64,000 nucleotides of DNA from IMG/VR virus record IMGVR_UViG_3300032462_001516, positions 34,663-98,662 of that record. One strand, 5' to 3'. The position numbers and the translations under genes were made by a program. This DNA comes from a virus. Each line of letters opens with the position of its first letter. The stretch's first letter is position 1. Shown here piece after piece: positions 4,650-16,216 of this stretch. The notes below the pieces were generated by a model. The model saw only the letters and a list, made by a program, of their open reading frames with translations. It made no database searches and was not told where the DNA came from.

Positions 4650-4731
4650 GGCTTTGTGGTGAAATTGGCAAACGCACAGCACTCAAAATGCTGCGTCGAA
4701 AGACTTGTGGGTTCGAGTCCCACCAAAGCCA
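4650..4731 (+). tRNA. tRNA-Leu(CAA), long variable arm
   Basis: The acceptor stem is GGCTTTG/CAAAGCC with discriminator A. The anticodon arm CAGCA-CTCAAAA-TGCTG gives CAA. The variable arm is long (CGTCGAAAGACTT) and the T-arm is GTGGG-TTCGAGT-CCCAC: a standard class II tRNA-Leu. It is the last tRNA before EF-Tu, reproducing the tRNA-tufB order of many bacteria. Confidence 0.93.
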
Positions 4732-4817
4732 CTGTTTCGATTTCTGGATCTGGCTCTTACTCGTTGTGAGTAGAAACACCTTTTTTTGGTGGGGTTATAG
4801 AAGTCAAACCTCCAACG

Positions 4818-4841
4818 GTGATCTCGTAAAGATCACAGGAG
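4818..4841 (+). promoter_or_regulatory. Hairpin and ribosome-binding site before EF-Tu
   Basis: GTGATCT (4818-4824) pairs with AGATCAC (4830-4836), directly followed by AGGAG at 4837-4841, nine bases from the GTG start at 4850. The hairpin leaves the Shine-Dalgarno exposed and may insulate it from the upstream tRNA transcript. Confidence 0.5.
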
Positions 4842-4849
4842 AAAGTAAA

Positions 4850-6022
4850 GTGAAGAAAGTCCACATCAATGTCGGAACGATTGGTCACATTGACCACGGG
4901 AAGACGACTCTGACAGCAGCAATTCTCGCTGTTCAGTCCGAGAAGGGTTACGCAAAAAAGAAAGCATACGGCGACATCGCCAAGGGCGGCACCGTTCGTG
5001 ACGTTACCAAAACGGTAACGATCACCACGTCGCACGTTGAGTATGAGACGGATACCCGTCACTATGCTCACATTGACTGCCCCGGTCACGCCGACTATGT
5101 AAAAAATATGATTACCGGGGCTGCTCAAATGGACGGCGCTGTATTGCTCGTCAATGCAGCAGACGGTCCTATGCCTCAGACGAAAGAGCATATTCTGCTC
5201 GCTCGTCAGGTGGGCGTGCCGGATATTGTAGTATTCCTCAATAAGTGCGATCTTGTCAAAGACGAAGAATTGCTGGAACTGGTCGAGATGGAAACAAGAG
5301 ACTTGCTGACGAAGTATGGCTTCGACGGCGAGAAGACTCCGTTTATCCGTGGAGCAGCAAAACCTGCCTTGGATAATCCTGCTGATCCCGCAGCAAGCAA
5401 GTGTATTGTAGAATTGTTGGCGGCTCTGGATTCTTATATTCCTGACCCCAGCCGTTCTATCGACCGTCCCTTCTTGATGCCCGTCGAAGGTGTTCACAAT
5501 ATCGAAGGTCGTGGCTGCGTAGTCACGGGCAAGATCGAGCAAGGAACCATCACGGTCGGAACCAAAGTTGAAATCCTTGGGTTGACTGATATTCTGGAGT
5601 CAGTTGTCACCAGCGTCGAGGCTTTCAATAAGCAACTGGAATATGGAGAAGCTGGACAGAATGTCGGTTTGCTGCTGAGAGGCATCAAGGCCGATCAAGT
5701 TCAGCGTGGACAGGTTGTGGCACAACCACGAAGCATCAAGCCTCACACCAAGTTCAAGAGCGAAATTTACGTCTTGGGCAAGGATGAGGGCGGGCGTCAC
5801 ACCCCGATCTTCAATGGTTACAAGCCACAGTTCTTCTTCAGAACTACCAACGTCACCGGCCTTGTCCAAATGCCGGAAGGAATTGAGTTGGTCATGCCGG
5901 GCGAGAACACTTGCCTGTTTATCACCCTGGATAAGCCGATTGCTATCGAAAAAGGTAGTCACTTCGCCATTCGTGAGGGTGGTATGACAGTCGGTTCTGG
6001 CGTCGTGACGGAATTGCTGTAA
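4850..6022 (+). CDS. tuf: Elongation factor Tu, full length
   Basis: A 390-residue GTPase matching bacterial EF-Tu over its whole length. EF-Tu carries aminoacyl-tRNA to the ribosome. Visible elements are the P-loop GHIDHGKT (residues 14-21), [13 protein letters not shown], and the C-terminal beta-barrel domains with GRG, PHTKF and GGRHTPIF. The GTG start behind AGGAG fits the family's N-terminus ([12 protein letters not shown]). The effector (switch I) region departs from the bacterial R-G-I-T consensus: here it reads K-T-V-T, with the magnesium-binding Thr kept. Three back-to-back copies of a TAAAACGGCTG-type unit cover the stop codon. Placement behind a tRNA array suggests co-transcription. 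It is complete and not visibly decayed, so a working phage EF-Tu is likely. Confidence 0.96.
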
Positions 6023-10972: not shown

Positions 10973-10988
10973 TCCAAACCGCTATAGA
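10961..10988 (+). promoter_or_regulatory. Possible sigma70 promoter for the GTPase-centre RNA
   Basis: TTGGAA (10961-10966) and TATAGA (10983-10988) are 16 bases apart, placing a start near 10995, upstream of the hairpin series that ends in a terminator at 11239. Confidence 0.35.
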
Positions 10989-10994
10989 AAGCAT

Positions 10995-11239
10995 TGGCTA
11001 CAGTAAATCGGGTGATTTAGGGAAAGGTACGTCCTTTCCTTTGGGGAAACAAAGACAGCCAGGATGTTGGCCTAGAAGTAGCCAACATTCAAAGAGTAGG
11101 GTTACACAGGGACTTCCTGTTAACGGACCCTTTTGGTGTAATAACACACTGGCCGAGCCACCCAACACTCGACACTGGCAATGCTGGTGCCTGGAGAGCA
11201 TGTCGCCGACGAAGGCTTAGGCGACATGCTCATTTTTTG
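10995..11239 (+). ncRNA. Non-coding RNA containing a 23S rRNA GTPase-associated-centre mimic
   Basis: Bases 11058-11095 and 11138-11153 align with E. coli 23S rRNA 1051-1088 and 1093-1108 (helices 42-44). By hand, 47 of 54 positions are identical, including GCCAGGATGTTGGC, TAGAAG (with A1067), AAAGA and GTAATA (with A1095/A1096), then CACTGG. E. coli 1089-1092 is replaced by 42 bases that can fold as an extra hairpin. Differences in helix 43 improve pairing (ATGTTGGC/GCCAACAT). Around the core are hairpins TAAATC/GATTTA (11004-11019), GGAAAGG/CCTTTCC, CTTTG/CAAAG and CACTGGC/GCTGGTG, and the unit ends in a strong terminator. No protein frame fits. It carries the site that binds L11 and contacts EF-Tu and EF-G. 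A decoy or mimic role is inference. Confidence 0.85.
11196..11239 (+). terminator. Intrinsic terminator of the GTPase-centre RNA
   Basis: GAGCATGTCGCC (11196-11207) pairs perfectly with GGCGACATGCTC (11220-11231), followed by A and six Ts. Confidence 0.93.
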
Positions 11240-11439: not shown

Positions 11440-11521
11440 GGCCCTGTGGTGGAATTGGAATACACATGGGACTTAAAATCCCACGCCGAAAGGATTGCGG
11501 GTTCGAGTCCCGCCAGGGCTA
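11440..11521 (+). tRNA. tRNA-Leu(TAA), long variable arm
   Basis: The acceptor stem is GGCCCTG/CAGGGCT (first pair G.U) with discriminator A. The anticodon arm TGGGA-CTTAAAA-TCCCA gives TAA. The class II variable arm is CGCCGAAAGGATT and the T-arm GCGGG-TTCGAGT-CCCGC. Confidence 0.93.
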
Positions 11522-11554
11522 CGTTTTACAAGATGCCTAAAACGTGGTAAAACT

Positions 11555-11635
11555 GGCCGAGTGGTGGAATGGCATACACGATGGTTTTAGGAACCATTGC
11601 CGCAAGGCTTGCAGGTTCAAGTCCTGTCTCGGTCA
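11555..11635 (+). tRNA. tRNA-Leu(TAG), long variable arm
   Basis: The acceptor stem is GGCCGAG/CTCGGTC with discriminator A. The anticodon arm ATGGT-TTTAGGA-ACCAT gives TAG. The variable arm is class II (TGCCGCAAGGCTT) and the T-arm is GCAGG-TTCAAGT-CCTGT. It is followed by a 7-bp tandem repeat (ATGAGGA) before the next gene. Confidence 0.92.
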
Positions 11636-11663
11636 CTAATGAGGAATGAGGAATGAGGATACG

Positions 11664-14852: not shown

Positions 14853-15074
14853 ATGGCAGTTGAAACAGATATTACAAAGCGTTGGGAACAAGGGATAGAT
14901 CACCATCCCAAAAGCATCGCTTTGTTCAAAAAACTAGCAGAAATCGACTTCAAATTCGGTGGAGATTTCTTCGACTGGTCATCAGGTGGCGATGGAGACA
15001 ATGGCGAACATTTAATGTACGAAATGGACATTATGTTCGAGAAAGAAGATGCTGAAATAGGAGCTTCATCATGA
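14853..15074 (+). CDS. Small acidic protein
   Basis: A 73-residue acidic protein (MAVETDITKRWEQG...). Near the end is a D/G/S-rich stretch (DWSSGGDGDNGE). Unknown family. The stop overlaps the start of the GspS-like gene by four bases, so both are likely made together. Confidence 0.55.
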   Translation: MAVETDITKRWEQGIDHHPKSIALFKKLAEIDFKFGGDFFDWSSGGDGDNGEHLMYEMDIMFEKEDAEIGASS

Positions 15075-16216
15075 AGCGACACACAACCGATCTTAGGCAT
15101 GATTGGAAAAAGACCATTGAAGGTCAGGGAATGTTATTTCATACATTTGATGGCGATATTTATTGGGACGAGTCAGCATACTACGAGTTAAACAGTCCTG
15201 AAGTAGACACCATAGAGGCGGCTACTTACGAACTGAATGATCGTTGTCTTGAAGCTGTTCAACACGTCATCGACAATGATCTGTTAGATGCTTTCTTGAT
15301 CCCGCCCGAATTCCATCAGTTTATCCAAGACAGTTGGGAGAGAGACGAACACACCATTTATGGTCGGTTTGACTTTTCCTATGACGGAAAAACCCAACCA
15401 AAGATGTTGGAGTTCAATGCCGACACGCCTACCGGCCTGATAGAAGCTGCTGTTACCCAATGGTATTGGGCAAAAGACAAGTTTCCAAATCGGAACCAAT
15501 TCAACTCAATACACGAGCGGCTAATTAAGGTTTGGAAAGAACTGAAGTCCGTGACGCCAGGAGTATTGTATTTTACGGCACTCGCTGGCAATCTCGAAGA
15601 TTACATGAACGTCAATTATCTTCGAGACACTGCCATCCAAGCCGGGTGGGATACTGAATATATTGACATTGAAAACATCGGATGGAACGAAGGTCGCCGT
15701 ACATTCACCGACCTGAACGAAAATCCAATACAGACATGCTTCAAGCTGTATCCTTGGGAATGGATGCAGACCGACGAGTTTGGCAGAAAACTATTCCTCA
15801 AGACCACCAAATGGCTTGAGGCTCCGTGGAAGGCAATCCTTAGCAACAAGGCCATTCTGCCTATATTGTGGGAGTTGTTTCCCGATCATCCAAACTTATT
15901 AGAAGCATCGTTTCAACCAATTCGCACAAAACCTTACGTTCAGAAGCCAATTCTGAGTCGTGAGGGAGCTAATGTGCAAATATTTGAGCATGGCGAATTG
16001 CTGCTTAAAACTGATGGTCCTTACGATGGACCATGTGTATATCAACAACTATGGGAACTTCCCAACTTTGATGGCAATCACGCCTGCATTGGTAGTTGGT
16101 TGGTCAACGGCTGGGCTTGTGGAATAGGCATTCGAGAAGACAAAACCATTGTAACGGGGAACCTGAGTCGGTTCGTACCGCACATTTTCGGTGTTCGACC
16201 AAAATACGGGAGTTAA
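15071..16216 (+). CDS. Glutathionylspermidine synthase family ATP-grasp ligase (YgiC/YjfC-like)
   Basis: A 381-residue protein matching the preATP-grasp and ATP-grasp domains of the GspS family. Visible blocks are G-R-F-D-F-S-Y-D-G-K near residue 98, K-M-L-E-F-N-A-D-T-P-T-G near residue 110, a W-K-A-I-L-S-N-K-A-I-L-P block near residue 255, and K-P-I-L-S-R-E-G-A-N near residue 290. The E. coli homologues YgiC and YjfC lack the amidase half of GspS, as here. The family ligates an amine or peptide carboxylate at ATP cost; the phage substrate is unknown. It closes the DUF350-lipoprotein-ligase set. Confidence 0.85.
   Translation: MKRHTTDLRHDWKKTIEGQGMLFHTFDGDIYWDESAYYELNSPEVDTIEAATYELNDRCLEAVQHVIDNDLLDAFLIPPEFHQFIQDSWERDEHTIYGRFDFSYDGKTQPKMLEFNADTPTGLIEAAVTQWYWAKDKFPNRNQFNSIHERLIKVWKELKSVTPGVLYFTALAGNLEDYMNVNYLRDTAIQAGWDTEYIDIENIGWNEGRRTFTDLNENPIQTCFKLYPWEWMQTDEFGRKLFLKTTKWLEAPWKAILSNKAILPILWELFPDHPNLLEASFQPIRTKPYVQKPILSREGANVQIFEHGELLLKTDGPYDGPCVYQQLWELPNFDGNHACIGSWLVNGWACGIGIREDKTIVTGNLSRFVPHIFGVRPKYGS

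Follow-up and report, generated by a model that had tools for sequence, protein, structure and literature searches.

The 58-nt GTPase-associated centre (GAC) of 23S rRNA folds autonomously and is the binding site of L11 (PMC4409310). The phage RNA described here shares with this domain the sequence and fold of E. coli positions 1055-1104, the tertiary pair U1060-A1088, the lone pair 1082-1086 and the loops of helices 43 and 44. Unlike the ribosomal domain, however, it is freestanding, carries an arm within helix 44, has a purine at position 1101 and, in most lineages, a rewritten helix 42, and shows compensatory changes at pairs that are fixed in the 23S sequences compared.

Leaders of ribosomal protein operons, e.g. 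the L10 leader, likewise are RNAs that copy an rRNA protein site. Yet none of 19 phage records contains an L11 gene (an L12 gene is present in two), and the RNA is surrounded by tRNAs and mostly hypothetical proteins. The missing L11 gene, these unrelated neighbours and the presence of several terminators belonging to the RNA itself argue against a cis-acting leader, and any uL11 ligand would have to be the host's.

RNA anti-CRISPRs and other decoy RNAs of phages imitate host RNAs, and the shared idea would be a phage RNA that captures the protein partner of the RNA it imitates. Here, however, rRNA is copied rather than a CRISPR repeat or an antitoxin, and translation would be the target. The small stable RNAs rnaC and rnaD of T4 are also encoded together with phage tRNAs, but the GAC sequence is missing from them, and our family model finds nothing in T4.

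The sequence-only reading from which this analysis started knew of no phage RNA of this type. We found no published description in the open-access full texts searched, and there is no Rfam family for it; the RNA thus apparently represents a widespread, undescribed class.

The RNA in the window

The window, i.e. the whole 64,000-nt stretch of DNA analysed, belongs to a 98.7-kb IMG/VR viral record. The sequence-only reading had recognised a copy of helices 42-44 in it, and the Rfam model LSU_rRNA_bacteria indeed matches positions 11044-11163 (+) at these helices (38.6 bits, E=2e-9, model positions 1078-1159). The family's gathering threshold of 50 is thus not reached, which is usual for so short a fragment interrupted by an insert. 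Recounting reproduced the reported identity of 47 of 54 positions to E. coli 23S rRNA (34/38 at 1051-1088 and 13/16 at 1093-1108), with A1067 and A1095 present at 11074 and 11140; U1060 and A1088 correspond to 11067 and 11095. At position 1101, A takes the place of U, and the 5′ strand of helix 42 retains the 23S-like AGACAGCC in this lineage.

Other details needed adjustment. Positions 1089-1092 are replaced as described, but the 42-base hairpin amounts to a net gain of 38 nt. The terminator is present downstream of the RNA, with a 12-bp stem and a T run; it was read from the sequence, and its 12-nt loop exceeds what our scan accepted. The suggested promoter, by contrast, is unsupported, because a motif scan just 5′ of the RNA returned no sigma-70-like promoter.

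With the family model, the site reaches 70.9 bits (E=1.5e-18), which is not independent evidence because the window sequence is among the 49 sequences used to build the model. Folded as a single sequence, the RNA reaches a z-score of -4.75 and beats 200 of 200 shuffles. Aligned with its conserved counterparts in two related contigs (L002 and L008), it yields one consensus fold of 84 pairs, seven of which show compensatory change, and the terminator is kept in both with compensatory changes as well. This lineage combines a short arm (34 nt) with additional conserved outer helices and a terminator (Table 1).

Open reading frames overlap the RNA on both strands, none of which looks like a gene that would explain the stretch; a small ORF and two same-strand tRNA-Leu genes flank it. 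Neither ARAGORN nor the Rfam tRNA model recognises the RNA as a tRNA or tmRNA, and among the other families of Rfam 15, including introns, GOLLD, ROOL and RNase P, none matches over the RNA or its insert; over the RNA only LSU fragments are found, and over the inserts nothing.

Table 1. Features of the window RNA, its surroundings and a candidate partner gene (window coordinates unless another record is named; pairing positions in brackets are E. coli 23S numbers)
Feature	Coordinates	Strand	Remarks
EF-Tu gene	4688..6022	+	PF00009, E=1.5e-56; about 5 kb upstream of the RNA; start codon may be further in
Whole RNA, probable extent about 250 nt	10985..11238	+	outer helices, central GAC domain, 3′ terminator; 5′ end inferred
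Helix 42, 5′ strand (1047-1055)	11054..11062	+	pairs with 11149-11157; model alignment, covariation
GAC copy, 5′ half (1055-1090)	11062..11097	+	helix 43, lone pair 1082-1086, U1060, A1088
Extra arm within helix 44	11098..11131	+	closing AGGGU/ACCCU, inner hairpin ACAGG/CCUGU; insert site common to relatives, covarying closing helix
GAC copy, 3′ half (1091-1104)	11132..11149	+	linker UUU-G followed by the hairpin of helix 44, GUGUAAUAACAC
Helix 42, 3′ strand (1104-1112)	11149..11157	+	covariation, model alignment
Intrinsic terminator	11196..11238	+	stem 11196-11207 / 11220-11231, 12-nt loop, T run; sequence, alignment, fold
tRNA-Leu (taa)	11440..11522	+	downstream, same strand as RNA
tRNA-Leu (tag)	11555..11636	+	downstream, same strand as RNA
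phrog_850 gene, locus L199	8071-9594
phrog_850 gene, phage Milchi	74860-76239
phrog_850 gene, records G123, G127, G135

Relatives in large phages

Exact-pattern scans of viral contigs and BLAST searches against annotated phage genomes recovered at least 105 distinct relatives, almost all of which lie on phage contigs (as long as 533 kb) or in one of some 15 cultured large phages. The RNA is therefore widely conserved in other phages, and this, like the LSU match, is a point on which the sequence-only reading had left its proposal open to refutation. A 3′-arm pattern gave at least 120 matches; among the matches listed, about 105 of 112 that were checked in newly collected loci have a GAC 5′ arm within 500 nt upstream, even though the 5′ arm was absent from the search pattern. 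A 5′ arm was accepted if it had at least 24 of 36 consensus matches and if its positions 1087-1090 resembled GA[G/A]U; random 500-nt windows mostly score 16-20 on the consensus test, and the scores above 22 probably form a tail from true copies in the pool.

The cultured carriers identified by BLAST include Cronobacter phage GAP32, Pectobacterium phage CBB, Xanthomonas phages XacN1, XbC2 and XaC1, Erwinia phage Kaldavass and the SNUABM group, Serratia phage BF, Aeromonas phage 4_4572, Acinetobacter phage ME3 and Pseudomonas phages pf16, UNO-G1W1, Milchi and Astolliot, with Vibrio phage 2.275.O as a divergent member; their hosts are gammaproteobacteria. In most of these records the RNA lies in an unannotated gap, as in pf16, where it sits between tRNA-Asn and tRNA-Pro. 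Kaldavass, Milchi and UNO-G1W1 have small annotated ORFs that overlap it and are probably not genuine.

No member was found in T4 (including rnaC/rnaD), T5, phiKZ, Bacillus phage G, S-PM2 or Aeh1. A match in KVP40 falls inside a tail-fibre gene and was discarded as chance, as were the early pattern matches L010, L011, L013-L017, L019-L023 and L026, which are chance matches to coding sequence. A scan of bacterial genomes with a gap pattern returned nothing. A second scan gave seven matches, six of which are the same RNA, and a terminase match lies on the RNA's contig in two of three bacterial genomes checked (one of them below the cut-off). These copies thus look like phage contigs, and a bacterial origin of the RNA was rejected. 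Among plasmids, a search gave many matches, which resemble ordinary 23S genes.

A 198-kb phage carries a full GAC RNA directly 3′ of a tRNA (L198 200-700, minus). At a distance of about 7 kb lies another piece, in which helix 43 is kept and the rest is lost (L006 4385-4447, minus). This piece was considered as an insert-free member and rejected, given that the same phage has the full copy.

Constraint on the GAC core

The 105 distinct sequences share a common anatomy in which the core corresponding to 1055-1104 is kept, although 1091-1104 and the UUU linker look constant partly through ascertainment, because most members from L058 onward were found by their 3′ arm. Across lineages, core identity is 0.80, whereas flanks and insert ends reach about 0.3.

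In 49 diverse members, the covariation score of the fold is 0.593, as opposed to 0.150 +/- 0.011 for shuffled and at most 0.168 for slid controls, and 18 of 25 pairs have changed on both sides. This bears out the proposal that a structured phage RNA copying GAC helices 42-44 is under structural selection. Helix 42 covaries, as do pairs 1058-1080 and 1082-1086 (the latter being the lone tertiary pair) and the closing helix of the arm, which is specific to this RNA. The lone pair is formed in 96% of sequences, as U-A, C-G or A-U. In the bacterial 23S comparison, a set of 24 loci with seven distinct sequences from one phylum, 1082-1086 and 1058-1080 are only U-A and A1067 is only A. Since pairs covary where the compared bacterial 23S sequences are fixed, the phage RNA is diverging while its fold is kept.

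The tertiary pair U1060-A1088 is retained in 105/105, and constancy or near-constancy extends to G1059-C1079, A1084, A1085, A1077 and G1071. Position 1101, which can pair with a linker U, is A or G and never U in all 105 sequences; the 3′-arm pattern partly fixes this position, but the purine also occurs in relatives found by 5′-arm patterns. Position 1067 behaves differently: among the 80 members whose 5′ arm was not the search pattern, it is A in 81% and G in 12%, the rest being U or C. Its replacement in 19% suggests that the factor-facing surface is less constrained than the fold. In most relatives, only the first pairs of helix 42 have escaped rewriting, which makes the binding of L10/L12, named in the sequence-only reading as a property of the ribosomal domain, unlikely as a general trait.

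At 1087-1090, E. coli 23S rRNA reads GAAA. The phage RNAs read GAGU, with G1089 in 103/105 and U1090 in 105/105, counts that are partly imposed because the 5′-arm filter demanded a GA[G/A]U-like end. This difference makes recent copying improbable, and the phage RNAs were probably not taken recently from gammaproteobacterial hosts such as those of the cultured carriers.

The insert in helix 44

All 105 sequences carry an insert of 24-365 nt at a single site in helix 44, between G1089-U1090 and the helix-44 hairpin, with UUU and a purine following the arm; an uninterrupted helix 44 with U1101 was thus absent. At least two recurring types can be told apart. Type 1 (n=17; XacN1, ME3, GAP32 and CBB among them) has the motif CAGGGGAAGGACAAGUACAGUU or variants thereof and the end motif GACCCUUAGAG, with GGGCGAAGCC-AGACUUAAU in some members. 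Type 2 (n=29 by motif; pf16, Milchi and Aeromonas phage 4_4572 among them) has GGCACCCCGUAACUGGUAAGGC-type motifs, mostly GGCACCCCG-...-GGUAAGGC close to the insert end. No recognised shared type was assigned to 81 of 127 collected RNAs. Judged by these motifs, the inserts are not random filler in all lineages.

An Rfam search of the inserts in the loci scanned gave no match, and thus no known intron or ribozyme. Consensus folding of the two types (MAFFT, RNAalifold) produced no useful structure, the sequence lengths being too unequal.

Pseudomonas phages Milchi (L044 2730-3230) and Astolliot (L056 1230-1740) each encode two tandem GAC RNAs, one per insert type; the first copy of each pair has a degenerate core in which A1095 is changed.

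Genomic neighbourhood

A tRNA is present in 76 of the 105 loci, and the RNA lies on the same strand as the nearest tRNA in 76/76. The tRNA is within 100 nt in 47 of these 76, often only 8-20 nt away, compared with 25% of the time for random positions in the same loci. Some copies, namely those of the window, XacN1, L012 and L039, have their own terminator. Taken together, the RNA is a structured non-coding element of large phages, with a GAC core and a phage-specific arm, that is often located in tRNA arrays.

The EF-Tu gene that the sequence-only reading had noted in the same genome is indeed present (Table 1). EF-Tu occurs in 8 of 59 records surveyed, always 2.6-6.6 kb from the RNA, a proximity for which a rough product of chances over six lineages comes to about 1.5e-8. 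A further neighbour is phrog_850 (DUF2828/DUF7788, listed as RNA-binding in PHROGs), found in 26 of 70 RNA-carrying phages and located some 2-5 kb from the RNA in several of them. Its protein is a candidate partner of the RNA.

Possible functions

That a conserved RNA class exists is, in our view, practically certain. Its function is a different matter, as fold conservation alone does not name a ligand. The best explanation of the whole, which we hold tentatively and at slightly less than even chances, is that host uL11 meets in this RNA a decoy or platform working in trans, with an insert that serves a second function. What recommends this reading is that the positions of the fold are held constant while A1067 drifts, a pattern that fits selection for the folded L11-binding surface better than it fits a need to contact elongation factors or thiopeptides. 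The RNA would be transcribed together with the tRNAs or ended by its own terminator, would fold like the rRNA domain and could be bound by host uL11 through the retained fold. During infection, it might then lower in trans the uL11 available to ribosomes and to uL11-dependent signalling, such as RelA activation and RF1 termination, and the variable insert might recruit a second partner or block use of the RNA as rRNA. Binding of uL11 as such appears somewhat more likely than not; that sequestration is the purpose of this binding seems somewhat doubtful. The insert could clash with uL11, and uL11 is dispensable in E. coli, so that a gain from its titration is not obvious. The sequence-only reading had likewise suggested sequestration of L11 or a blunted stringent response, and either may be an effect of the RNA.

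Should this reading be correct, viruses would have their first known freestanding mimic of an rRNA domain, within the literature that we searched, and the RNA would form, beside the phage tRNAs, a second layer in the takeover of translation. Its distribution suggests a widespread means of interfering with host translation, and we see an even chance that an undescribed, widespread phage RNA with exchangeable helix 44 inserts reprograms host translation or the stringent response by capturing uL11. The RNA is common in large phages and unannotated in cultured genomes, making these proposals testable now. Evolution has, in effect, also run a separate experiment on the GAC fold here, with C-G and A-U at 1082-1086 where the compared 23S sequences are fixed. 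The RNA bears, moreover, on the possible roles of non-tRNA RNAs in phage tRNA arrays, and structural and antibiotic studies could gain from it a natural RNA ligand of L11.

Alternatively, the GAC core may be a mere handle, held by uL11 or by a phage protein, and the insert may do the work in regulation, tRNA-array processing or an RNA-protein particle. The recurring insert types with conserved motifs (17 and 29 sequences) speak for such a platform, as does phrog_850, which lies a few kb from the RNA in some of the 26 of 70 phages that have it. Even so, we consider it unlikely: the shortest inserts measure only 24 nt, 81 of 127 inserts lack a recognised shared type, and most phages surveyed do not have phrog_850.

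A decoy could also be aimed at an enzyme instead of a ribosomal protein. Here, the RNA would absorb an ADP-ribosyltransferase, methyltransferase or nuclease of the host or of a competitor that attacks helices 43-44, thereby shielding phage translation, in keeping with the other translation-supporting genes of large phages, e.g. tRNAs. We know of no anti-phage system that targets the GAC, the RNA's spread over many phages means that the attacker would have to be very common, and A1067 and loop positions, which vary, fit poorly with such a role. Nevertheless, a bacterial toxin directed at this site exists in Tre23, which ADP-ribosylates 23S rRNA at the GTPase-associated site (PMC9990079), and isolated GAC copies can be enzyme substrates, because NHR and TSR modify isolated 58-nt and 29-nt GAC RNAs (PMC4409310). 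On balance, we give an enzyme target only a small share of our confidence.

Translational GTPases, RelA and tRNA elbows all touch the ribosomal GAC, and the RNA might be a sponge for one of these. The sequence-only reading had raised the draining or tuning of elongation factors and protection against thiostrepton-like inhibitors. In RelA complexes, the tRNA elbow stacks on A1067 (PMC5829649), and wherever EF-Tu is present in a record (8/8), it lies 2.6-6.6 kb from the RNA. Against this stands the relaxation of A1067, the very contact of factors and tRNA elbows (81% A in the 80-sequence set), which disfavours a sponge for elongation factors or thiopeptides alike. Moreover, LSU searches of the loci scanned found no sarcin-ricin loop fragment, most RNA-carrying phages surveyed have no EF-Tu in their record (8/59 do), and starved complexes hardly need A1067 to activate RelA (PMC5829649). 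We therefore regard a factor sponge as improbable.

Finally, a non-functional captured 23S fragment or assembly contamination has a negligible probability, for although genuine 23S rRNA does occur among viral records (L007 and L050), covariation with compensatory evolution, the common insert site, the purine at 1101 throughout, the complete cultured genomes and the tRNA-strand bias all show that the RNA is not a stray piece of rRNA. Apart from the contamination case L007, no other LSU segment was found in the loci scanned.

Other observations in the loci

Ordinary 23S sequence in the two phage-labelled records just mentioned, L007 and Paenibacillus phage Pd_22F (L050 2300-2600), apparently stems from contamination or misassembly.

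Further RNA candidates were seen in loci of GAC-RNA phages. In the tRNA array of another such phage, the Rfam model of the Y RNA-like YrlA (cut-off 69) matches weakly at two places, with about 34 bits (L009 2666-2782 and 5209-5328, minus). A 49.6-kb contig contains a weak match to bacterial RNase P class A (L008 7658-7951; 41 bits, cut-off 100, E=2.2e-9) about 7 kb from its GAC RNA, a possible phage RNase P RNA.

In the window itself, a gene of the histone-deacetylase family (PF00850; 12171-13139) follows just 3′ of the tRNA-Leu pair, and a glutathionylspermidine synthase gene (PF03738, E=6.7e-145; 15071-16216) lies about 4 kb from the RNA. Aeromonas phage 4_4572 also encodes a glutathionylspermidine synthase (L047 412-1620), about 1.4 kb from its copy of the RNA.
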